Of a DNA stretch of 64,000 nucleotides, positions 679-38,377 are shown piece by piece. The notes under the pieces are model-generated. The model was given only the letters and a program-made list of their open reading frames with translations, did no database searches and was not told the origin of the DNA. Origin of the DNA: Picosynechococcus sp. PCC 7003 (lineage in GTDB: Bacteria > Cyanobacteriota > Cyanobacteriia > Cyanobacteriales > MRBY01); the NCBI RefSeq assembly GCF_001693255.1, contig NZ_CP016474.1:434001-498000 (forward strand). Reading direction: 5' to 3'. The position numbers and the translations under genes were made by a program. Numbering within the stretch: the first letter of the stretch is position 1; each line of letters begins with the position of its first letter.

Positions 679-2331
679 CTACTTTTCCACAAGCCAGAGG
701 GGTAAACTTTGGCTTGGATTTACAGCTAAACCTTGAATATTGGCCTGGGCAAAAACATATTCTTTCCCTTGCCAAATGGGAATATAAGGCACATCCGCCA
801 CCATCTGTTCTTGGATTTGCGTGAAAATTTCGAGGCGTTTTGTCGGGTCAGTTTCCGTCCGTTGGGCATCAATTAATTGGTTCATCGCTTCATTCCAATA
901 AAAAGACCCTTGGTTCTGTGCGCCTCCCGATTCACAGCCCGTTTCTGGGGAACCCACCTCACAATTTAGAAGGGGATGAATGTAATTATCCGCATCTAAA
1001 AAGTCTGGGTACCAGTTCCCCAGGGCTGCCGGATAAATCCCCTGGGCAATATTTTGGAAAAAGGTCGCTCCTTCGACGCTGCTGGGCTCAAATTGTAATA
1101 ATCCCCCCAGTTCGCGGTTCGCATATTCCCTGAGGGTCGTGGCGATAATGCCGCGGGTGGTGGAACCAGAGGGATACCAGAGGGGAATCACCGCTGGATT
1201 TTCGGGGGTAAACCCGGCTTCGGTGAGGAGGGTTTTGGCTTGTTCGATGTTGGCATCACCATAGGTGCTTTGGAACAGCGGTTGGGACGCCGGAAAAGAA
1301 GTGGGAATCAAGCTATAGAGGGGATCCGCTTGGCCATTGAGCACCCGTTCGTTGATCAGGTTGCGGTCTAGGAGAGCGGCGATCGCCTGACGAACTTCTA
1401 GCTGATCAAGGGGGGCTTGGTTGCGGTTCAGCACCATAAAATTCACCGCTGTCCCCTCTGCTTCTAGGGCTTGGATCTGGCCGCTTTCTGCCTCCCGGAG
1501 CAAATTACTCACCTGTTCTGGCTCTAGGGATTGGTACGCAATATCCACGGCCCCCGTCTGGAGCGCATTAAATAAATTGGCGGCATTACTATTGAAAATC
1601 TGAATATCCACCCCAGCATTTTTCGGCGCTTCGCCCCAGTAGTCGTCATTGCGGTCGAGGGTAATCGTGTCACTACCGAAGTTCGTCAACCGATAAGGGC
1701 CAGTACCCACCAGTTGACTGGGGTTAAAGGCACCTTCCCCAATTTCATAGGCCGCAGGGGAAACAGCGCTGGCACCGGCAAAGGCCAATAATGCCGGGAA
1801 AGCAGCAAAGGGTTGCTTGAGGGTAATGGTTAGCTCATATTCCCCTGTCGCTTCGATATTTTCGATAATGTCTCCCAACAGAAAAGAAGGTTTGCCCTTA
1901 TTTTCCATAAAGCGATCTAAAGAGAATTTCATTGCCGCTGCGTTAAAGGGTTCACCATCGTGGAAAGTGACCCCTTCTCGTAGGGGAATGGTGTAGGTAA
2001 GGCCATCGTCGCTGATGGTGGGAAGCTCTGTGGCCAGGAGGGGTTTGATCTCCGTGGTACCGATTTCGTAGGTGTAGAGGCTTTCGGTGACGTTGTAGAT
2101 GATATTTAAACCGGCAATTTCGTAGCTATCGGCGGGATCGATGGTGCGGGGTTTTGCGGTGGTGCCCAGGGCCAGACGATTATTCACATCGGTGCTAATG
2201 GTCGTCGTTTCACTGCTGGGGGTTGTGCCATTGGGATTAGGATTACAGCTTACCAGGAGGGAACCAAAACAAAGGGCGATCGCCGCTGCGGAATAAAATT
2301 GCCGGGAATGGATCATAGTGCTTTTGGACAA
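679..2331 (-). CDS. ABC transporter solute-binding lipoprotein, family 5 (peptide/nickel type)
   Basis: A 550-residue extracytoplasmic binding protein. The N-terminus has a hydrophobic signal segment ending in a lipobox-like LVSC (about residues 26-29), so it should be a lipid-anchored periplasmic protein. The body shows family-5 features: a TIDPADSYE start, the TYTIPLREGVTFHDGEPF segment near residues 112-130, and a VGTGPYRL motif. Family members bind oligopeptides, nickel chelates or other solutes, and the ligand cannot be read from sequence. No permease or ATPase genes for this class are adjacent. It starts 6 bases beyond the stop of larE, so the two are probably cotranscribed. A second start at Met6 is possible. 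Confidence 0.88.
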   Translation of the reverse strand: MSKSTMIHSRQFYSAAAIALCFGSLLVSCNPNPNGTTPSSETTTISTDVNNRLALGTTAKPRTIDPADSYEIAGLNIIYNVTESLYTYEIGTTEIKPLLATELPTISDDGLTYTIPLREGVTFHDGEPFNAAAMKFSLDRFMENKGKPSFLLGDIIENIEATGEYELTITLKQPFAAFPALLAFAGASAVSPAAYEIGEGAFNPSQLVGTGPYRLTNFGSDTITLDRNDDYWGEAPKNAGVDIQIFNSNAANLFNALQTGAVDIAYQSLEPEQVSNLLREAESGQIQALEAEGTAVNFMVLNRNQAPLDQLEVRQAIAALLDRNLINERVLNGQADPLYSLIPTSFPASQPLFQSTYGDANIEQAKTLLTEAGFTPENPAVIPLWYPSGSTTRGIIATTLREYANRELGGLLQFEPSSVEGATFFQNIAQGIYPAALGNWYPDFLDADNYIHPLLNCEVGSPETGCESGGAQNQGSFYWNEAMNQLIDAQRTETDPTKRLEIFTQIQEQMVADVPYIPIWQGKEYVFAQANIQGLAVNPSQSLPLWLVEK

Positions 2332-2336
2332 CAGGA

Positions 2337-3203
2337 CTAGGTGGACTTGATCATAGCGGGATTTGACCCCGAATATTGTTGGGCAGACCGGGTTTGGGGA
2401 TCGAGGACTTGGTTTAGTTTGCCACTGCGGTAGCCCTCGAGGTCTAGGGTGACGTACAGAAACCCATAGTCTTGGAAAGTTTTAACTAGGGTATCGAGAT
2501 CTACCTGGACGACAAAATCTCGGATTTGTTCGGGGGGCAACTCAATGCGGGCGGTATCACCCTGGGAACGCACCCGTAGCGATCGCCAACCCAAACGCCG
2601 CAGATACACTTCACAACGACCGACCCGCTGGAGTTTTTCGGTGGTGATCAGCTCGCCGTAGGGAAACCGGGAACTAAGGCAGGGTTGCGCGGGTTTATCC
2701 CACCAGGGCAGCCCCAACTGTTTGGAAATTTCCCGCACTTCTAATTTGGTGATCCCCACTTCTGCTAAAGGCGATCGCGCTCCCCGTTCTTTGGCCGCTT
2801 GGATGCCCGGACGATAATCTTGGAGATCGTCGGCATTTACCCCGTCAATTACGTAGGGATAGCCCCGCTCTAGGGCCAGGGGTTTAAGGGTGTCGTGGAG
2901 TTCACTTTTGCAAAAGTAGCAGCGGTTGGCGGGATTGCTGACGTAATTGGGATTTTCCATTTCATGGGTTTCCACCTGTTCGTGGACAATGCCAATGGTT
3001 TTCGCCTGGGCGATCGCCGCTTCGAGTTCTTCCGGTAACAGGGATGGTGAGACAGCAGTAATCGCCACGGCGCGATCGCCTAAAACATCGTGGGCCACCT
3101 TTGCCACCAAAGTGCTGTCAATGCCGCCAGAATAGGCAATTAAGGCCCGTTCCGTTTCCCGGAAAAAATGTTGCAGTGCCGTGAGTTTTTCTTGCCAAGC
3201 CAT
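2337..3203 (-). CDS. larE: ATP-dependent sacrificial sulfur transferase LarE
   Basis: A 288-residue PP-loop enzyme. LarE adenylates the pyridinium dicarboxylate precursor of the nickel-pincer cofactor and inserts sulfur, in the studied enzyme by sacrificing a cysteine. The PP-loop SGGIDS is at residues 25-30. A CYFC pair sits at Cys95/Cys98, and PAQPCLSSRFPYG places Cys175 where the sacrificial cysteine (Cys176 in Lactobacillus) is expected. The length is typical. No larB or larC is seen in the window, so the client enzyme is not apparent. It lies between the urt operon and a family-5 binding-protein gene. Confidence 0.85.
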   Translation of the reverse strand: MAWQEKLTALQHFFRETERALIAYSGGIDSTLVAKVAHDVLGDRAVAITAVSPSLLPEELEAAIAQAKTIGIVHEQVETHEMENPNYVSNPANRCYFCKSELHDTLKPLALERGYPYVIDGVNADDLQDYRPGIQAAKERGARSPLAEVGITKLEVREISKQLGLPWWDKPAQPCLSSRFPYGELITTEKLQRVGRCEVYLRRLGWRSLRVRSQGDTARIELPPEQIRDFVVQVDLDTLVKTFQDYGFLYVTLDLEGYRSGKLNQVLDPQTRSAQQYSGSNPAMIKST

Positions 3204-3287: not shown

Positions 3288-4409
3288 CTAAGCACCGTAG
3301 GCTTGATCAATCTCGGCCTCGATTTCCCGCACCACCTCTAGGGGAAGCCCCAACAGTCCCAGAAGTTGCTGGTAGACAATGCTTTCCAGTTCATTGACCC
3401 CATTGGCCCGAATCACCTCATAACTGAGCTTTAGGGCGGTAATTTTCTCAGTGTCCGTGATCAAAGTATCCGTCAACTGTTCTAGGGGAAGATTGCTCGC
3501 CAGGTAATTTTCGAGTTCTTCTTGTAGTTGCCCCTGGTGCTGGCTGTCGTTGGTAAATTGCTCACTCAGGCGACTCAGGATCACTTGCTTTTGCTCTGGG
3601 GCAAAGTTGCCATCGGCCCAGGCCATACTGGCGGCGATGCGAATCAGGTTCATCTGCTCCGGTGTAACGGTGGGCGCTTCCCCCAGATAAACTTCAATCA
3701 CTTTGGGGTCGTTCTGTACTTGATTCATGTTTCCTTCGCAGAGCACAGAACCCTGGTGCAGCACCGTTACCTGTCGGGCAATTTGACGCACAAACTCCAT
3801 ATCATGTTCGATCACGATCAGAGAATGGCTTTCAGCGAGGGCGAGGAGCAAATTACCGACGTTTTCTGTTTCTTCATCGGTCAAACCCGCCACGGGTTCA
3901 TCCACCAACAACAGATCCGGGGATTGGGCCACCAGCATGCCAATTTCTAAGCGCTGTTTTTCGCCATGGGCTAACCAAGCGGCTTGAATATCTGCTTTTT
4001 CGGTGAGGCCGATGGTTTCTAAAAGGCTTAGGGTTTGGGTTCTTTCCGTGGCCTTGGTGCCCCCAAAAAGAGTCGGTAAAACATTTTTGTGGCGATTACA
4101 GGCGAGGTCGAGGTTTTCGCGCACCGTTAAATTTTGGTAGACCCGGGGCGTTTGAAATTTGCGACCAATGCCGAGGCGGGCCACCTTATGTTCCGGGAGG
4201 CCGCTGATAGTTTTACCTTTGAATTTGACTTTCCCTGTGGTGGGTTTGACCTTGCCGGTGATCACATCTAAAAACGTGGTTTTACCGGCACCATTGGGGC
4301 CAATGATCACCCGTAGTTCCCCTTTTCCCATGCGAAAGGTGAGGTTATTGAGAGCCTTAAAGCCATCGAAGTTGACGGTCAAATTTTCAATTTCCAAGAT
4401 ATTTTCCAT
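3288..4409 (-). CDS. urtD: Urea ABC transporter ATPase UrtD with C-terminal TerB-like domain
   Basis: A 373-residue protein. Residues 1-245 are a branched-chain/urea-type ABC ATPase, with Walker A GPNGAGKTT near residue 38, a signature region around LAHGEKQRLEIG, Walker B LLLVDEPVAGL and a switch histidine in IVIEHDMEF. It should energise urea import with the UrtB/UrtC membrane subunits. The last 120 residues or so are not part of the ABC domain. They start with LIRIAASMAWADGNFAPEQK and contain a DTEKITALKLSYEVIRANG segment, an all-helical pattern resembling TerB/TerB-like domains. UrtD proteins I know of are often near 250 residues. The gene starts 9 bases after urtC ends. Confidence 0.88.
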   Translation of the reverse strand: MENILEIENLTVNFDGFKALNNLTFRMGKGELRVIIGPNGAGKTTFLDVITGKVKPTTGKVKFKGKTISGLPEHKVARLGIGRKFQTPRVYQNLTVRENLDLACNRHKNVLPTLFGGTKATERTQTLSLLETIGLTEKADIQAAWLAHGEKQRLEIGMLVAQSPDLLLVDEPVAGLTDEETENVGNLLLALAESHSLIVIEHDMEFVRQIARQVTVLHQGSVLCEGNMNQVQNDPKVIEVYLGEAPTVTPEQMNLIRIAASMAWADGNFAPEQKQVILSRLSEQFTNDSQHQGQLQEELENYLASNLPLEQLTDTLITDTEKITALKLSYEVIRANGVNELESIVYQQLLGLLGLPLEVVREIEAEIDQAYGA

Positions 4410-4418
4410 GGCCTCGCC

Positions 4419-5588
4419 CTACTCCTTTGTCACTAATTGGTCTTCTTGGATATTTTGCACATCGGGATCATCAGCGATTGCCGGATAACTCACTGGCTGG
4501 CCGATGCCCAACAGACGGGCCACCTTGACCCAGAGGACATCTCGCACCCAGCCCACAATGCCATCGGGGAGCACTGTCACCACGATTAAAAACAACGCCC
4601 CTTGGAAAAAGAGCCAAATTTCTGGGAAGCTTTCACTCAAATAAATGCGGGCAAAGTTGACCAAAATCGTGCCCAGAATTGCGCCGATCAGGGTCGCCCG
4701 CCCCCCCACCGCCACGGAAATCACCATCTCAATGGAAAAGGCTACTTCCATGTAGTTCGGCGTAATAATCCCACTCTGCACGGTATACAGCGCCCCGGAG
4801 ATCCCGGCGATCGCCCCGGCGATCGCAAAGACCACCACCTTAAACCAGGTGGGATCGTAGCCCGTAAACCGCACCCGCGTTTCATCATCCCGAATGGCGA
4901 TCAACATTCGGCCAAAGCGACCACTCGTCAGCCAGCGACAGAGCAGATAAACCAACAGCAAGGCAACAATCGTTATTTCATAAAACACCAACTGAATTGC
5001 CGGATCGCCGACCCGCTGCCCCAGAAAAATGGCAGTATCCGTTTTGAGACCATTGGTGCCGTTGATTAATTTTTGCTGGCCGTTAAAGAAGTTAAAAAAG
5101 ACCAACAGGGCCGCCTGGGTAATGATCGAAAAATAGACCCCCTTAATGCGATTTCGAAAGACGAGATAGCCCAAAATCCCGGCAACGATCCCCGGCACAA
5201 GCACCATGGCAATCAACGTTAGGGGTAGAGAGTAAAAGGGCTGCCAAAAGAGGGGTAATTTTTCGACGCCGTAGAGCATAAAAAATTCAGGAATGGCACC
5301 GTCGGGCAATTGTAAATTGAGGTGCATCGCTAGGGCATAGCCACCGAGGGCAAAGAAAATCCCTTGGCCAAGACTGAGCAAGCCGGTATAGCCCCAAATG
5401 AGGTCGATCCCCAGGGCGACGATCGCCATGGAGAGAAAACGCCCCACGAGTTTGAGGCGAAATTCCGGCAAAATCAAGGGCAGGATGACCATCGTAATGA
5501 TCACCAGAGCAAGGATAATTGCTCCCTCAATGAGAAGTTTGGTGCGCTGTTGTTTGCGCTGGTCACGTCGGGTTAAACCTACATTCAT
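4419..5588 (-). CDS. urtC: Urea ABC transporter permease UrtC
   Basis: A 389-residue LivM-type inner-membrane permease with about nine or ten hydrophobic segments. Typical landmarks are GYTGLLSLGQGIFFALGGYA near residues 65-84 and a GRFGRMLIAIRDDETR cytoplasmic loop that contacts the ATPase. The N-terminal 20 residues are basic and precede the first membrane segment. It pairs with UrtB to form the urea channel. It lies between urtB (37-base gap) and urtD (9-base gap) on one transcript. The frame is intact. Confidence 0.93.
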   Translation of the reverse strand: MNVGLTRRDQRKQQRTKLLIEGAIILALVIITMVILPLILPEFRLKLVGRFLSMAIVALGIDLIWGYTGLLSLGQGIFFALGGYALAMHLNLQLPDGAIPEFFMLYGVEKLPLFWQPFYSLPLTLIAMVLVPGIVAGILGYLVFRNRIKGVYFSIITQAALLVFFNFFNGQQKLINGTNGLKTDTAIFLGQRVGDPAIQLVFYEITIVALLLVYLLCRWLTSGRFGRMLIAIRDDETRVRFTGYDPTWFKVVVFAIAGAIAGISGALYTVQSGIITPNYMEVAFSIEMVISVAVGGRATLIGAILGTILVNFARIYLSESFPEIWLFFQGALFLIVVTVLPDGIVGWVRDVLWVKVARLLGIGQPVSYPAIADDPDVQNIQEDQLVTKE

Positions 5589-5625: not shown

Positions 5626-6804
5626 TTAGAGTTCTGCGGTTCTGCCTTTCGGCGGGAAGAGACCCGCAGGCCGGAATTGGAGGAAGCCGATAATAATCAC
5701 AAAGGTCATCACCTTCGCCATACTGGTGGTGGCGAAAAAAGTGGCCAAATCCAAGAGAAATTGTGGTGCCTGGAGGGAGGTAAAAACGGTAACAAATGTG
5801 CCAGAACCAATGAGATAGCTGATAATCCCCAAACCGAGGGCCGCCAAAATGGTGCCGAGCAAATTACCGACGCCCCCCACCACGACCACCATAAAGGCAT
5901 CGACGATGTAGTTTTGGCCAGTATTTGGCCCCACGGAACCCAACAGGGCGATCGCCACCCCGGCAATGCCAGCTAAACCAGACCCCAGGGCGAAGGTCAA
6001 GGCATCCACGCGGGCGGTGGGAATCCCTAAACAGGAACTCATTTCCCGATTTTGGGTGACGGCACGGATCCGGAGACCCCAGTTGGATTTATTCAAAAAC
6101 CAGTACATCGCCCCCAGACAAAGCAAGGTCAGGACGATGATAAAAATCCGGCTATAGGGCAGTTGGGCTGAACCCAGGGAAAGTCCGCCCTGGAGCCATT
6201 GCGGCGCAGTGACATCCACATTGCGGGCACTAAACCAGGGTTTTGTGAGGGCATCATTTTTCGTCAGATTTACCGCGAAAATCACGCCAAAACCAAGGGC
6301 AAAAGCGGCAATCACATTCAATTTATCCAGCCAAATTTTTAGGGCAGCGGCTTGGATCTTGGCCAGGTTTAAGGCTTGGACTACGGCCCAGCGAATCACA
6401 TCTTTGAGGAGAAAGGCAATCACCCCGAAGGCGATCGCCCAGTTCACACTCCGGACAAACTGCTGCAAAATCAGGCTGACCCCCCAGGTGGCCAAGAGAG
6501 TTTCTAGGGGACGGCCATAGAGGTAGCGGATGACGCCCCGTTCTAGGCCAAAGCCCACCGCTGCGGCCACAAAAAAAGCCAGGGGAATGGCAAAGATAAT
6601 GTAGAGATTAAAAAACGGTTCCCCGAATCCCCGGAACACATTCTGAACCACAAAGGTTGTGTAGGCGCCCAGCATCATTAATTCGCCGTGGGCCAGGTTA
6701 ATCACCCCCATCAAACCAAAGGCGATCGCCAAACCCAAGGCGGAAACCAGGAGTACAGAGCCAATGCTGACCCCATTAAAAATACCGATTAAAAGTTCTG
6801 TCAC
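5626..6804 (-). CDS. urtB: Urea ABC transporter permease UrtB
   Basis: A LivH-type permease of about 392 residues with multiple membrane segments. GLMGVINLAHGELMMLGAYT near the N-terminus and the RAVTQNREMSSCLGI loop are characteristic. The GTG at 6804 is preferred as start because it has a GGTGGG sequence at good distance and begins the protein just before the first membrane helix; the frame stays open to a TTG at 6831. It forms the membrane channel with UrtC. The gene follows urtA after about 100 bases. Confidence 0.92.
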   Translation of the reverse strand: MTELLIGIFNGVSIGSVLLVSALGLAIAFGLMGVINLAHGELMMLGAYTTFVVQNVFRGFGEPFFNLYIIFAIPLAFFVAAAVGFGLERGVIRYLYGRPLETLLATWGVSLILQQFVRSVNWAIAFGVIAFLLKDVIRWAVVQALNLAKIQAAALKIWLDKLNVIAAFALGFGVIFAVNLTKNDALTKPWFSARNVDVTAPQWLQGGLSLGSAQLPYSRIFIIVLTLLCLGAMYWFLNKSNWGLRIRAVTQNREMSSCLGIPTARVDALTFALGSGLAGIAGVAIALLGSVGPNTGQNYIVDAFMVVVVGGVGNLLGTILAALGLGIISYLIGSGTFVTVFTSLQAPQFLLDLATFFATTSMAKVMTFVIIIGFLQFRPAGLFPPKGRTAEL

Positions 6805-6903
6805 AGACCAAACCCACCGAGATACGCGCAATAAAACTGCGAGAAAGCCGGATTCTGTAGGGAGGAATGCCAGCTTTCCCGAACAAACATCTGGGATTAA
6901 CCC

Positions 6904-8237
6904 CTAGATTTCGTATTTTTCACCCTTTGTGGGATCACTCCAGTCACAGGCAAATCCTTTAGTGGATTCAACATACTGGTTCCAAGCTTGGGGCGCGATG
7001 GGGCCGTCGGTTTCCCAGACGATATCGAACATCCCGTCTTCCCGTACCTGACCAATGCGCACGGTCTTCGAGAGGTGGTGGTTGGCATTCATTGTCACGG
7101 GGCCTTCGGGGGCGGCGAATTCTTGACCAATGGCGGCATTACGCACAGCTTCGAGGTCATAGGCATCGGCCGCACCACTGGCGATCGCCTGCTCGACAGC
7201 TTGCTTCCAGATGTAGACCATGATGTAGGCTGCTTCCATGGGATCATTGGTTACCCGGTCTTCACCGTATTCCGCTTTAAAGTCCGCGACCCACTTTTCG
7301 TTTTCAGGGGTTTCCACGGTTTGGAAATAGTTCCAAGACGCATAATGACCCGTGAGATATTCGGGGCCAATCTGGCGGACTTCTTCTTCGGCGATCGACA
7401 CCGACATCACCGGATATTCCTCGGGGGTGAGACCCGCATCACGAATTTGCTTAAAGAACGCAACGTTACTGTCACCGTTCAAGCTATTGAAAATCACGCC
7501 ACCGTTGGGGAGCGCTGCTTTGATTTTGGTGATAATTGGCGTTACTTCGGTGTTACCGAGGGGGAGATAGTCTTCGCCGACCGTGGTACCACCTTTGGCT
7601 TCTAATTGAGCTTTGATTCTAATTGAGCTTTGATAATGGTATTCGCCGTTCTGGGGAAGACATAGTCAGAACCCACGAGGAAAAATTCTGTTCCTTTGTT
7701 TTCGAGGAGCCAGTCTACCGCAGGCTCGATTTGTTGGTTCGGGGCAGCACCAGTGTAGAAGATATTCTTCGAGCATTCTTGACCCTCATACTGGACGGGA
7801 TAGAACAGCATGTGGTCTTTTGATTCAAAAACATCCTTAACGGCTTTGCGGCTGGCAGATGTCCAGCAGCCAAAGACGACGGCGACACCATCTTGGTCAA
7901 TGAGTTTTTCTGCCTTTTCTTTGAAGACATCCCAATCGGAAGCACCATCTTCAACGATGGCTTCAATCATTTTGCCGTTAATACCACCGGCGGCATTAAT
8001 TTCTTTGATGGCGAGTTGTTCGGCTTCGACAACAGTGGTTTCACTAATGGCCATGGTGCCACTAAGGGAGTGGAGAATACCGACTTTGATCGTGTCACCA
8101 CTGGGGGTAGAGGTTGTGCTGCCACTATCGGGGGTATCAGGGGTTTCTGTGGGTTGGCCGCAGGCTTTGAGGAGGATACTGGAACCGAGGGCGGCGGAAC
8201 TGTAGAGAATAAATTTACGTCTTCCGAGATTACTCAT
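6904..8237 (-). pseudogene. urtA: Urea-binding protein UrtA, split by a 17-bp tandem duplication
   Basis: The urea-binding lipoprotein of the UrtABCDE transporter. The N-terminal frame (8237-7602, 211 residues) has a Tat-like GRRKFIL signal, a LKAC lipobox, and the [12 protein letters not shown] start of the UrtA binding domain. It runs into a stop right after residue Glu207. The C-terminal frame (to 6904) continues the family through VIFNSLNGDSNVAFF to the end. The break coincides exactly with two adjacent copies of a 17-base unit. Removing one copy joins the frames as ...[23 protein letters not shown]... and gives a protein of 438 residues, a normal UrtA length. The lesion therefore looks recent. 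It may be a real mutation, a reversible slippage state or an assembly error. Confidence 0.92.
7600..7633. repeat. Perfect 17-bp tandem duplication inside urtA
   Basis: The unit TTCTAATTGAGCTTTGA is present at 7600-7616 and again at 7617-7633 with no mismatch and no spacer. Seventeen is not a multiple of three, so the duplication shifts the urtA frame and creates an in-frame TAG on the minus strand. Deleting either copy restores a continuous UrtA reading frame. Confidence 0.97.
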
Positions 8238-8320: not shown

Positions 8321-8362
8321 AGTGTAAAAGTCCCGCCCCTAAAAAAATGTGACACTTGATAC
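8321..8362 (-). promoter_or_regulatory. NtcA-type nitrogen-control promoter of urtA
   Basis: Read on the minus strand, GTATCAAGTGTCAC (8362-8349) fits the NtcA palindrome GTA-N8-TAC with one mismatch. It is followed after exactly 22 bases by TACACT (8326-8321), which matches the TAN3T -10 element of NtcA-activated promoters, where the usual spacing is 20-24. The predicted start of transcription leaves a leader of about 75 bases before urtA. NtcA activation of urt genes under nitrogen limitation is known in cyanobacteria. The site here is read from sequence only. Confidence 0.75.
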
Positions 8363-9933: not shown

Positions 9934-11185
9934 CACTGAGAAATTCTCCCAAAAGATATAACGAACCACATAACACCCTAGTGTGGGGGGTGGCGATCGC
10001 CTGATCAAGGGCAGCGGTTAAAGTGGCGTGGGTTTGACAGGAGGCGAGGGCCGGACAAATCACCTGGGCCAGCATCGCTAAAGCTTGGGGATCAGCACTG
10101 CTATGGCCCCCCACTGGCACGAGATGTAAGTGATCCCCGTCTCGCAAGAGGGCCTGGAGGACATTTTGGTGATCCTTCGTCGAGAGCATCCCCATGACCC
10201 AAGTGACCGGTTGGGGGAGAGTGTCTACATATTTGCGTAATTCCGCTGCCGCCACGCCATTATGAGCGCCATCAATGAGGATTTTTTGACCCTGCCATTG
10301 GTGCCATTCAATGCGTCCGGCCCAGCGGGTTTTAGCAATACCGTCACGCAGTTGTTGATCGGAAATTTGCCAACCTTGTTGCCGCAAAGCATAAGTAGTT
10401 TCGATGGCGATCGCCGAATTGTGCAGTTGGATCTCGCCTAAAAGGGGCAAGGAATATTCAAATTCACCATATTTCGCTAACATCCCCCTCTGTCCCTCTT
10501 CTGAAGGGGAATGCATTATCTGGGCAGACTGAATCCAGGTGGCTGGACAATTTAAGGCTTGAATTTTTTCACGAATCACCTGGGCCGCGATCTCCGGCAC
10601 TTCCCCAATCACCGCTGGACAATCTTGTTTTAAGATGCCTGCTTTCTCCCCGGCAATTTTGTCTAAACTGTTGCCTAACCGTTGCCAGTGATCCATCCCG
10701 ATGGAGGTGATGACAGAAACGAGGGGGCGATCGCAAACATTAGTCGAATCTAACCGGCCCCCCAAGCCCACCTCAATCACTGCGATATCCACCTCTTCCT
10801 GGGCAAAGTACAAAAATCCTGCCGCTGTAATCACCTCGAACTGGGTGGGCGTTTCTTGGTTGGGATCAATGGCTGCCTGAATTTTCTCTAAAACTGCCAG
10901 TAAACGTTCCGGGGCGATGGGCTGATCATTGAGACAAATTCGTTCTGTCCAATGCACTAAATGGGGTGAGGTAAAGCGTCCGACTCGATAGCCCGCCGCC
11001 GTGAGAATCGAAGACAAATAGGCACAGACCGAACCTTTCCCGTTGGTGCCTGCCACATGAATAATTGGCACTTGGCCTTCTGGGTGGCCGAGGTTCGCCA
11101 GCAATTGGGTAATGCGCGTTAGACCGAGGTTAATGCCAAACCGTTCAAAGGTCGCAAGGAGATTGGCGATCGCCGCTTGGCTCAT
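9917..11185 (-). CDS. folC: Bifunctional dihydrofolate/folylpolyglutamate synthase
   Basis: A Mur-ligase-family enzyme of about 422 residues that adds glutamate to dihydropteroate or tetrahydrofolate. The P-loop is VAGTNGKGSVCAYLSSIL near residues 43-60, followed by the LVHWTERI and VIEVGLGGRLDSTN motifs. The start at 11185 (MSQAAIANLL) is preferred; the frame stays open further but enters the promoter of the divergent gene. Residues around MHSPSEEGQRGM (near 10490-10520) look like an extra insertion in an otherwise ordinary sequence. Confidence 0.9.
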   Translation of the reverse strand: MSQAAIANLLATFERFGINLGLTRITQLLANLGHPEGQVPIIHVAGTNGKGSVCAYLSSILTAAGYRVGRFTSPHLVHWTERICLNDQPIAPERLLAVLEKIQAAIDPNQETPTQFEVITAAGFLYFAQEEVDIAVIEVGLGGRLDSTNVCDRPLVSVITSIGMDHWQRLGNSLDKIAGEKAGILKQDCPAVIGEVPEIAAQVIREKIQALNCPATWIQSAQIMHSPSEEGQRGMLAKYGEFEYSLPLLGEIQLHNSAIAIETTYALRQQGWQISDQQLRDGIAKTRWAGRIEWHQWQGQKILIDGAHNGVAAAELRKYVDTLPQPVTWVMGMLSTKDHQNVLQALLRDGDHLHLVPVGGHSSADPQALAMLAQVICPALASCQTHATLTAALDQAIATPHTRVLCGSLYLLGEFLSDAAKI

Positions 11186-11200
11186 GGTGAATATCAAAAA

Positions 11201-11227
11201 TTTGGGACAATATCCCCAAACTATAAT
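11201..11227 (+). promoter_or_regulatory. Promoter with adjacent inverted repeat, upstream of paralogue A
   Basis: A perfect TATAAT -10 box occupies 11222-11227, only 10 bases before the ATG at 11238, so the message would have a very short leader or none. Immediately upstream, TTTGGG (11201-11206) and CCCAAA (11215-11220) form an inverted repeat where a -35 box or operator would sit. No good -35 hexamer is seen. It lies in the divergent gap with folC. Confidence 0.5.
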
Positions 11228-11237
11228 GGATTGGTGT

Positions 11238-11690
11238 ATGGGAAATTCCCAGATCTGGATCAACTTTCTGGCGTTACTGCCCTCGACGGTCTTAACTGTT
11301 TTATTGATTGCGATCGCCTTTTTGAGGTTCTATGACGAAACCGACTTTGAATTCCTCGGACTCATCACCCAACCCAGAGTCTGGAGCAACGGATGCACTG
11401 TGGCAGCCCTCCTGGCTACATTGGCTAATTTCGGCGTTGAGTGGAACCGTCGAAATCGAGAAACAAACCGCTTGGCTGAAGAAGCACAACGAAGAGCTAC
11501 GGAAGAGCAACGAAGAGATGAGGCGGAAAAACGAAGAGATGAGGCAAGAGAACGCCAAGCTGCACGAACTCGAATCGAAACTCGATGCCGTCTTGCGGAA
11601 ATCCGCTACCAGCTCGACCCAAGCGAAACCCACCGACAAGACTTCGTAAATGTTCTCGCCGTTTTGGAGGAATATGGGGAAATGTTTTAA
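11238..11690 (+). CDS. Membrane/coiled-coil protein, paralogue A
   Basis: A 150-residue protein of unknown family. A hydrophobic helix (about residues 10-27, LLPSTVLTVLLIAIAFL) is followed by a short loop, a second moderately hydrophobic stretch (TVAALLATLANFGVEW), then a long Arg/Glu-rich helical region (about 70-115), and ends with an ordered-looking IETRCRLAEIRYQLDPSE...VLAVLEEYG tail. Two near copies exist at 11704-12195 and on the minus strand at 25354-25725. The tail is conserved in all three beyond the end of the nested frame, which argues that this frame is translated. A start at 11226 is also possible. No function can be assigned. Confidence 0.72.
   Translation: MGNSQIWINFLALLPSTVLTVLLIAIAFLRFYDETDFEFLGLITQPRVWSNGCTVAALLATLANFGVEWNRRNRETNRLAEEAQRRATEEQRRDEAEKRRDEARERQAARTRIETRCRLAEIRYQLDPSETHRQDFVNVLAVLEEYGEMF
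11332..11649 (+). CDS. Nested +1-frame ORF inside paralogue A (putative)
   Basis: A 105-residue frame wholly inside paralogue A, shifted +1. The ATG at 11332 has GAGG at 11324-11327. The protein begins MTKPTLNSSDSS, has a Trp-rich LWQPSWLHWLISALSG stretch, then a Lys/Glu heptad-like coiled coil. The same frame with the same start is open in the other two copies (122 and 90 residues), although the sequences differ by substitutions and indels. An Arg/Glu-rich host frame can produce a coiled-coil-like shifted frame by chance, so translation is unproven. Confidence 0.35.
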   Translation: MTKPTLNSSDSSPNPESGATDALWQPSWLHWLISALSGTVEIEKQTAWLKKHNEELRKSNEEMRRKNEEMRQENAKLHELESKLDAVLRKSATSSTQAKPTDKTS

Positions 11691-11703
11691 AAATAGAAAA
11701 TGA

Positions 11704-12195
11704 ATGTGGCTAAATTTTCTAGCGTTACTGCCCTCGACGGTCTTAACTGTTTTATTGATTGCGATCGCCTTTTTGAGGTTCTATGACGAAACCGACTTTG
11801 AATTCCTCGGACTCATCACCCAACCCAGAGTCTGGAGCAACGGATGCACTGTGGCAGCCCTCGTGGCTACATTGGCTAATTTCGGCGTTGAGTGGAACCG
11901 TCGAAATCGAGAAACAAACCGCTTGGCTGAAGAAGCACAACGAAGAGCTACGGAAGAGCAACGAAGAGATGAGGCGGAAAAACGAAGAATTCGAGAAGAG
12001 CAACGTCGAATGGCTCAGGAAAGAGCAGATGAGTCTCGAAGAGCTGAGACAAGAGAACGCCAAGCTACACGAACTCGAATTGAAACTCGATGCCGTCTTG
12101 CGGAAATCCGCTACCAGCTCAATCCCACCGAAGCCAACCGACAAGATTTAGCCGATATTCTCGCCGTTTTGAAGGAATATGGAGAAATACCCTAA
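11704..12195 (+). CDS. Membrane/coiled-coil protein, paralogue B
   Basis: A 163-residue tandem copy of paralogue A, starting 13 bases after its stop and nearly identical in the first 80 residues. It begins MWLNFLALLPSTVL and lacks the short extra N-terminus of A. The Arg/Glu helix is longer because of an in-frame insertion (EKRRIREEQRRMAQERADESRR region). The tail (IETRCRLAEIRYQLNPTE...LKEYG) is conserved. The stop overlaps the convergent glycosyltransferase gene by 4 bases. Tandem duplication with divergence confined to the helical part suggests repeat-length change within the coiled coil. Function unknown. Confidence 0.7.
   Translation: MWLNFLALLPSTVLTVLLIAIAFLRFYDETDFEFLGLITQPRVWSNGCTVAALVATLANFGVEWNRRNRETNRLAEEAQRRATEEQRRDEAEKRRIREEQRRMAQERADESRRAETRERQATRTRIETRCRLAEIRYQLNPTEANRQDLADILAVLKEYGEIP
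11783..12151 (+). CDS. Nested +1-frame ORF inside paralogue B (putative)
   Basis: A 122-residue frame that starts at the same relative ATG, with the same GAGG upstream, as the nested frame of paralogue A. The first 65 residues are the same as in A. The in-frame insertion lengthens the coiled coil here too (KNEEFEKSNVEWLRKEQ), without introducing a stop. Either it is a second protein or it is a by-product of the host frame's composition. Confidence 0.35.
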   Translation: MTKPTLNSSDSSPNPESGATDALWQPSWLHWLISALSGTVEIEKQTAWLKKHNEELRKSNEEMRRKNEEFEKSNVEWLRKEQMSLEELRQENAKLHELELKLDAVLRKSATSSIPPKPTDKI

Positions 12196-30011: not shown

Positions 30012-31136
30012 TCAAGTTTCCCAAAGACGGCGGCGCGGTTTTCCGTTCAAGCGCTGGTGTGCCTCCTGGAGCAGTTGAGGGATAGGCAGTTGGCTGGGAC
30101 AACGGGGTAGACAATCACCACATTCGGTACAGGCATTACCTTTTTTCCCAGGGAACCAATGGCCCGCATTTTCGAGCATTTGATAGCGGTATTCGCCGTA
30201 GCTTTGCATATCGTAGGCGATCGCCAAATTCCTGAGGCGGAGAATTTCGGGGATCGCAATTGCTTCAGGGCAAGGTAAGCAAGCGTAACATTGGTGGCAT
30301 TCTGTCCCCTGGAGACGTTGGTGTTGATACTGGCTCAGGCTTGTGAGGCGCTGTTGCTCCTGGGAAGTGAGGGGCTGATCTTGGTCAACGAGGGGCACCA
30401 GAACAGCCAATTCGCTAGGATTGGCCGCCCCAAAGCTGAGGGTTGTAATGCGGCGATCGCCTAACAAAAAACGGTAGGTGAGTTCTAAAGGTGTGTCCGG
30501 TTGGCAGAGGGTCTGGAGGGTTTGGGGCGGGGTGAACAGTTGGCCTCCTTTATCGCCAGGGGAAATGATAAAAATCCCTAAATCCTTTGCCGCAGCAAGG
30601 GCGATCGCCTCGGCATTACGCTGAAAAAAATAGTAGTAATGGAGGTTAACAAATTCAAAATAACCCGTTTCAATGGCCTTGAGGATCAACGCCAGGGGGC
30701 CGTGGGTGGAAAAACCAAGGTGGCGAAATTTGCCTTGCCGTTGCAATTGTTGGAGCGGCCCTAGACCTGTCTCTAAAAACCACTGGAGATGTTCCGGTGT
30801 ATTGATGCCGTGGATCGCCAAGCAGTCTAAATAATCGGTGCCTAAATTTTCCAAGGAAGCCGTGATGGTTCGCTCAATTTCCGCTGCTGCCCCCTTGGGT
30901 AATAGTTTGCTGGTGAAGAAAAATTTCGACCGGGGTAGACCCAACTCCCGAAAGGCTTGTCCTAACAGACGCTCACTCGTCCCGTAGCTCGGTGCCGTTT
31001 CAAAATGATTAATCCCCAACTGCCAAGCCCGCTGTAGCGTTGCCGTCATGGTTTCGCTGCTGTCTAAGGCCCGCATTGTTCCCAGGGAAAAAATCGAGAT
31101 GTCTAGTTCTGTTTTCCCAAACCGTCGGTAACGCAT
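30012..31136 (-). CDS. Aldo/keto reductase with C-terminal iron-sulfur cluster motifs
   Basis: A 374-residue protein. Residues 1-270 are an AKR barrel: MRYRRFGKTELDISIFSLGTM, INHFETAPSYG with the Tyr position, and FTSKLLPKG with the Lys. The C-terminal 100 residues hold CHQCYACLPCP and CTECGDCLPRCP, consistent with 4Fe-4S binding. The fusion is a known AKR subgroup found in cyanobacteria and anaerobes; the substrate is unknown. It precedes the TPR gene's end by only 23 bases. Confidence 0.88.
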   Translation of the reverse strand: MRYRRFGKTELDISIFSLGTMRALDSSETMTATLQRAWQLGINHFETAPSYGTSERLLGQAFRELGLPRSKFFFTSKLLPKGAAAEIERTITASLENLGTDYLDCLAIHGINTPEHLQWFLETGLGPLQQLQRQGKFRHLGFSTHGPLALILKAIETGYFEFVNLHYYYFFQRNAEAIALAAAKDLGIFIISPGDKGGQLFTPPQTLQTLCQPDTPLELTYRFLLGDRRITTLSFGAANPSELAVLVPLVDQDQPLTSQEQQRLTSLSQYQHQRLQGTECHQCYACLPCPEAIAIPEILRLRNLAIAYDMQSYGEYRYQMLENAGHWFPGKKGNACTECGDCLPRCPSQLPIPQLLQEAHQRLNGKPRRRLWET

Positions 31137-37841: not shown

Positions 37842-38225
37842 TTAGGCGATCGCCGCAGCCATGGAGGGCACCAAAATTTCTTTGGGGAAACCGCGATCAA
37901 ATTCGGTCATTTTACATTCCGTTGCCTGTAGCGCCTGCTGGAGGAATTTCATGGCTTCAACGGGCTTGCCGCGACCACAAAAGAAAAGATCAGCCGCAAA
38001 GTACCCATATTCGGGCCAGGTATGAATGGCAATGTGGGACTCAGCAAGGGTTGCGGTGGCTGTTACACCGTGGGGACTGAATTGATGGACACAAAGATCA
38101 ATTAGAGTCGCTTCTCCGGCGGCGATCGCTTCGATCATGGCCCGACGGATACCTTCGGGATCATTGAGGAGGTTCGCAGGGGAACCCCAACCATCCACCA
38201 CAAGGTGAGTACCCAATTTTTTCAT
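37842..38225 (-). CDS. speD: S-adenosylmethionine decarboxylase proenzyme
   Basis: A 127-residue class 1B AdoMet decarboxylase. The self-cleavage site is Glu62-Ser63 in LAESHIAIHTWPEYGYFAADLF, where Ser63 becomes the pyruvoyl group. His and Cys residues of the active site (HTWPE, FFCG) are present. It supplies decarboxylated AdoMet for spermidine synthesis. The ATG at 38225 (MKKLGTHLVVDGWG) is the family start; the longer frame to 38273 is not needed. Divergent from clpB. Confidence 0.93.
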   Translation of the reverse strand: MKKLGTHLVVDGWGSPANLLNDPEGIRRAMIEAIAAGEATLIDLCVHQFSPHGVTATATLAESHIAIHTWPEYGYFAADLFFCGRGKPVEAMKFLQQALQATECKMTEFDRGFPKEILVPSMAAAIA

Positions 38226-38377
38226 TCTTTTTATCCTTACACTCCGAGTAAAGGGGATAAACTTTGCGTACATATCACAAAGAAGATCCCAGTTTCAATG
38301 ATTTTCTGAAGAAAATAAATCCGTATTTTTACCTAAATTTGGATCAGAGAAATTTTCGCACCGCCCCCAAGGGACAA

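Follow-up and report, generated by a model that had tools for sequence, protein, structure and literature searches.

A probable recent null allele of urtA formed by a 17-base tandem duplication in Picosynechococcus sp. PCC 7003

How does a cyanobacterium that carries the genes of a urea importer come to have the gene for its binding protein, urtA, read in two frames, and does the break mark a lost function, a switch or an error of assembly? The question arises from the window analysed here, a stretch of 64,000 nucleotides from Picosynechococcus sp. PCC 7003, in which a first-pass annotation had noticed the break and had offered these three readings. Coordinates of the features at the locus are collected in Table 1.

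Table 1. Features at the urt locus (positions are those of the window)
Feature	Position	Strand	State
Tandem duplication	7600..7634	(-)	perfect, 17-base unit, 2.06 copies, inside urtA
urtA, whole	8237-6904	(-)	split in two frames by the 17-base duplication
urtA, 5' part	7602..8237	(-)	211-codon ORF: 207 native codons + 4 residues; TAG stop at 7602-7604; first half of the urea-binding domain
urtA, 3' part	6904..7665	(-)	different frame, uninterrupted between 7665 and the native stop at 6904; carries the second half of the binding domain
urtB, permease	5626..6831	(-)	open, 401 aa; TIGR03409, 369.7 bits vs cut-off 250.3
urtC, permease	4419..5588	(-)	open, 389 aa; TIGR03408, 435.4 bits vs cut-off 296.2
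urtD, ATP-binding protein	3288..4409	(-)	open, 373 aa, C-terminal extension; TIGR03411, 369.2 bits vs cut-off 304.1
Motif GTATCAAGTGTCAC	8349..8362	(-)	begins 125 bases before the urtA start; putative NtcA-like box

The duplication and the reading frame of urtA

The first-pass annotation described two adjacent identical 17-base units at 7600-7633, and this holds: copies 7600-7616 and 7617-7633 are identical, and the period-17 run is even one base longer, reaching 7634 for a length of 35 bases. That extra base is the sole microhomology. We found no other perfect tandem duplication with a period of 15-199 in the 64-kb window, where ~6e-5 are expected from base composition, and for periods of 12-60 there are three tandem duplications in the real window compared to none in 200 first-order Markov shuffles. 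The exact 17-base unit has no match elsewhere in the genome beyond the two urtA copies, which rules out a dispersed repeat; among the other genomes of the genus, one of the five has a single exact match, at a different place.

Microhomology-mediated tandem duplication needs a flanking pair of several bases, and a 35-base run with a period of 17 leaves one base. A search for palindromes gave an imperfect one of 13 bases (77%) at 7576-7599, beside the array, and a single pair of 9-base arms, but none that is long at the duplicated unit. With a single base of microhomology and no long palindrome found, chance misalignment of the strands during replication is the simplest origin, and it is probably how the second copy arose.

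We found that the 5' frame of urtA is native to codon 207 and then reads S, K, L and N before a TAG inside the second copy. Judged by eye, its N-terminus is signal-like, and the 3' part probably has no signal peptide of its own. Against the NCBIfam UrtA profile (TIGR03407), the 5' part covers positions 1-161 and the 3' part positions 154-361, together 1-361, as two partial, adjacent matches in different frames of 294.2 and 291 bits, each below the cut-off of 492.75 bits; no single open frame of this genome exceeds that cut-off. The frame break had been placed on the duplication, and the ORF at 8237-7602 and the downstream frame indeed match successive positions of the profile. It had also been claimed that one copy would give 438 residues, which agrees with the relative Picosynechococcus sp. 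PCC 7117, whose UrtA is read in a single frame of 438 codons.

UrtA-type proteins are two-lobed periplasmic binding proteins, and close relatives of UrtA have solved structures (8hic, 7s6e and 7s6f). Since the product would hold 207 of the 438 native residues and would be missing the second half of the binding domain, high-affinity urea uptake would be lost, as judged from the gene. A TIGR03407 profile search of the genome found no second UrtA above the cut-off that could compensate; the two further matches score 35.9 and 32.1 bits, as in relatives. The Pfam UT urea channel profile has no match here and none in the control genomes either, and this result is not evidence of absence.

The 14-base motif upstream of urtA (Table 1), which we take to resemble an NtcA box and treat as a candidate site, is identical in PCC 7117 and has two differences in the relative G001.

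Relatives, age and the possibility of a switch

The nearest genome among those compared is that of PCC 7117 (G002), which is 91% identical over urtA; for the strain PCC 11901, the available text of its description gives identities of 97.48% to PCC 7117 and 90.03% to PCC 7003 (PMC7205611). In a six-genome alignment, the 17 extra bases are present in this genome only and the other five genus genomes are all single-copy. Relative to PCC 7117, these 17 bases are the sole gap within urtA, and UrtA scores above the TIGR03407 cut-off in one frame in each of the five.

Among 130 genomes of the order, one of which is this genome, a UrtA match reaches an E-value of at most 1e-40 in 123 and exceeds the cut-off in 114. 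There is no internal stop in UrtA among the matches listed for these genomes, a set that excludes weaker matches such as the two of this genome. At 84 of 84 related loci, one HSP spans at least 400 of the 438 residues with no stop, a count biased by an under-representation of broken urtA because 80 of these loci were picked as the best 80 of 565 candidates; the 84 loci comprise 82 distinct sequences and include PCC 7117, the source of the query. Among the genomes compared, the duplication is limited to this one.

These comparisons bear on the proposal of an evolved phase-variable switch that toggles urea uptake by gaining and losing a 17-base copy. An exact 17-base direct repeat would suit such a switch, and since the unit length is not a multiple of three, loss of a copy changes the frame. 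However, slippage-based phase variation would be recognised by a tract that is present in relatives or recurs at the locus, and we found a repeat at the urtA site in none of the five genus relatives aligned. The exact unit is absent from the rest of the genome, and the one-copy state has only one base of microhomology, so the step from ON to OFF is not favoured. Xenorhabdus lrp also speaks against a switch: the 25 distinct plain mutations reported there include three tandem duplications of 26-116 bases, and when eight mutants were tested, none of the phenotypic reversions seen restored the gene, with the available text not placing the duplications among the eight (PMC6786866). Hence, the on/off switch is not supported, and we regard it as highly improbable; a return to one copy may occur, but so it may in any tandem duplication.

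Our preferred reading is a recent spontaneous duplication, and its age can be gauged from the two parts of the gene. Relative to PCC 7117, dN/dS is 0.025 in the 5' part (209 codons) and 0.039 in the 3' part (237 codons), where the median is 0.050 for 251 gene pairs with dS > 0.05 (mechanical ORFs in 464 kb, this genome vs PCC 7117). We polarised amino-acid changes with outgroups G001 and G005, and silent changes with G001 alone. Neither part has an amino-acid change that is clearly assigned to this lineage; the 5' part has two on the PCC 7117 lineage and one ambiguous, and the 3' part has three and four, respectively. Of the silent codon changes, 20 in the 5' part and 20 in the 3' part are clearly this lineage's own (G001 alone). 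Position 90 is Met here and Gln in PCC 7117; the outgroups put this change on the PCC 7117 lineage, but because Gln is also found in 78 of the 84 related loci, it could instead be this lineage that changed, to Met.

Had the 3' part drifted neutrally over the whole lineage, ~60 amino-acid changes would be expected (our own estimate, with ~3 replacement sites per silent site). The 0-4 observed indicate that urtA was constrained for most of the lineage's time, by a rough estimate for at least 85% of it. Of the 278 positions conserved in at least 90% of the loci, 11 have a deviating residue here, which PCC 7117 shares at 8 of them; the remaining three departures are at positions 87, 90 and 348, the last within an insert absent from most relatives. 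We found no pseudogene decay in urtA, whether as further stops, as indels or as relaxed dN/dS. Hence, urtA shows a break but no visible decay, and apart from the duplication its sequence looks intact. Since both halves keep their coding constraint, the break is young. The first-pass annotation had called the event young and the flanking urtA frames free of other damage; the former is well supported, and the latter agrees with the lack of any other gap relative to PCC 7117.

Assembly quality and insertions elsewhere in the genome

Constraint on both urtA halves is also expected of an intact gene, as it would be if the real chromosome were single-copy and the duplication an assembly or consensus error. 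The insertion excess in this genome relative to PCC 7117, given below, could likewise partly reflect assembly. However, the genome stands in three contigs of 3.35 Mb in total (main contig 3,057,091 bases, of which the window takes up 434001-498000), is 99.98% complete with 0 contamination, and has few frame splits, at 4 among the 423 PCC 7117 ORFs compared (~464 kb). Usual reads are longer than an exact 17-base duplication in unique sequence, and base calling does not typically err in this way, which also counts against this reading.

The frame splits come from mechanical ORFs of PCC 7117 of at least 100 aa (n = 423), which were compared with this genome: 245 are full length in one frame here, 133 have no match, 31 are partial or other, and 14 are flagged. 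Four of the 14 are split between frames: urtA, a 386-aa gene with a changed C-terminus, and two ORFs of 136 and 109 aa. Stops account for the remaining 10. In six ORFs they lie at residue 43 or earlier and are taken to reflect over-long mechanical starts, in three they lie in the last 15 residues, and one ORF of 100 aa holds four. In the reverse comparison, 14 of 409 ORFs of this genome are flagged in PCC 7117; with 14/423 one way and 14/409 the other, the two assemblies look alike in flagged ORFs. Hence, with few frame splits and similar flag counts in both directions, an indel-ridden assembly is not supported.

Three other places in the window drew our attention. The gene at 30012-31136, which resembles that of an aldo/keto reductase, has its C-terminal end in a different frame from PCC 7117. 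The 143-codon ORF at 37842-38273 has a dS of 0.02 relative to PCC 7117, with a median of 0.41, and is possibly a recent transfer or a mobile gene. At 11112-12195, two adjacent, very similar ORFs of 192 and 163 aa are rich in charged repeats.

Insertions were counted by a mechanical criterion in 298,462 aligned bases of this genome and PCC 7117, the window included. We found 52 insertions of at least 4 bases here vs 34 in PCC 7117 (two-sided binomial p 0.07), and 22 vs 5 of at least 10 bases (p 0.0015), counts that are unpolarised, so that deletions in PCC 7117 would look like insertions here. Exact tandem insertions of at least 4 bases number 12 vs 3, and those of at least 10 bases number 4 (that of urtA included) vs 0; the tandem share of insertions does not differ between the two genomes (Fisher p 0.14 for at least 4 bases, 0.56 for at least 10). 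Since all insertions are commoner here and the tandem share does not differ, nothing convincing points to a particular proneness of this genome to tandem duplication. That this lineage is unusually prone to short exact tandem duplications, and that reversible knock-outs let its polyploid cells silence urea import temporarily and heritably, is a suggestion to which we give hardly any credence.

Five tandem insertions here are of at least 7 bases, and urtA is the only conserved gene whose frame is broken among them. A 12-base one among the other four leaves an 867-codon ORF in frame, and at the sites of the remaining three we found no conserved ORF of 60 codons. This distribution also argues against an assembly error. 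On this evidence, we consider an error distinctly unlikely and a real, recent duplication the better reading.

The urea pathway and the likely fate of urtA in culture

The claim that urtB, urtC and urtD are intact is confirmed, as all three are open and each is above its NCBIfam cut-off (Table 1). urtE, at 1,668,503 and ~1.23 Mb from urtABCD, is also open and above its cut-off, so that every component of the Urt importer other than urtA is preserved by this measure. The urease genes covered, which are ureC (207,336), ureB (2,600,771), ureA (1,269,550) and ureG (2,206,595), are open and above their cut-offs. Compared to the known UrtABCDE urea ABC transporter, the system here is alike in its gene set, its urtABCD order, its profile matches and the presence of urease genes, and differs in that urtA is in two frames and urtE is distant.

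Urease and urea-transport genes are scattered on the chromosome (207336, 437708-442240, 1269550, 1668503, 2206595 and 2600771), whereas in G004 urtE, urtD, urtA and ureC lie inside ~8 kb. UrtD (3288-4409) has ~128 residues after its ABC domain without a Pfam match; urtD frames of similar length (376-401) are open in four of five genus relatives, and that of G001 is 273. Positions 679-3203 of the window, downstream of urtD, hold a LarE-like gene and another that encodes a nickel/peptide-type substrate-binding protein, which is below the nickel model's cut-off; a tie of these genes to nickel supply for urease is speculation.

According to the available text of PMC6737895, the urease genes are complete and urt genes missing in 23 cyanobacteria, and diffusion of urea through aquaporins is raised there as possible. 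Because urease thus occurs without urt genes, loss of uptake is less certain and residual urea entry is possible. Our literature search found no report on a urtA frameshift in Synechococcus or on urt in Picosynechococcus, and nothing for PCC 7002 under the exact phrase 'urea toxicity'. For the first-pass proposal of a young loss of urea uptake, then, the youth and the broken gene are well supported, and the loss of uptake itself we infer from the gene.

A special case of the recent null allele is that urtA was lost since urea uptake combined with urease is toxic in culture. Prolonged growth on urea is reported to kill Synechococcus PCC 7002 and Synechocystis PCC 6803, with ureC mutants surviving, and urea-tolerant Synechocystis clones are reported with a ureG mutation (PMC6737895, PMC5991728). 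With ureA, ureB, ureC and ureG open here, an import block would be one way to escape urea toxicity, and the toxicity published for relatives makes selection for urtA loss plausible. However, the tolerance mutations in the available text of these articles are in urease genes, and the word urt is absent from the available text of PMC5991728. Moreover, nothing shows that the strain met high urea. The Urt importer matters mainly at low urea, which counts against selected loss. Toxicity, in turn, is reported at millimolar urea (PMC6737895, PMC5991728). We consider selected loss unlikely, though far from negligible. Disuse on another nitrogen source would explain the allele equally well, and the sequence cannot separate neutral tolerance from selection.

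Whichever of these applied, we consider it quite likely that a recent spontaneous 17-base tandem duplication produced a null allele of urtA that was tolerated or favoured in culture. Ribosomes would stop after 211 codons, so that only half of the periplasmic urea-binding protein would be made. This would leave the high-affinity urea ABC importer without its receptor, while the permeases, ATPases and urease remain. The allele may have been tolerated if the strain was kept on other nitrogen sources, or favoured if urea uptake was harmful. One 17-base copy could be lost by slippage between the 17-18 base repeats, and such reversion would be incidental.

The nearest precedent that we have seen is in a Synechocystis laboratory substrain that lost its glucose transporter by frameshift (PMC10068330). 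As described in the available text, glcP (sll0771) of Synechocystis sp. PCC 6803 substrain GT-T is alike in that a cultured cyanobacterium lost nutrient uptake through a small frameshift insertion in a transporter gene; it differs in that the glcP insertion is of 1 base and was checked by growth, whereas the 17-base duplication of urtA is known from sequence alone. The 26-116 bp tandem duplications of Xenorhabdus nematophila lrp are likewise intragenic loss-of-function changes arising in culture, but there selection brought up lrp mutants of many kinds again and again, none of them phase variants, whereas urtA is one event (PMC6786866). In fission yeast ssp1, microhomology-mediated tandem duplications (Dan et al. 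2021, as described in the available text of the review PMC13207564) also place a premature stop in a coding region; these are reversible and lie between microhomology pairs, whereas urtA has 1 base of microhomology and no known reversion. Hence, the urtA duplication looks like an ordinary loss-of-function mutation that is reversible in principle.

If PCC 7003 is used as a reference or culture-collection strain, it should be checked before it serves as a wild type that consumes urea, and models could err where they derive urea uptake from its urt genes. As a clean, young and possibly revertible null allele, urtA of this strain would also allow rates of duplication reversion to be measured by selecting for urea use.
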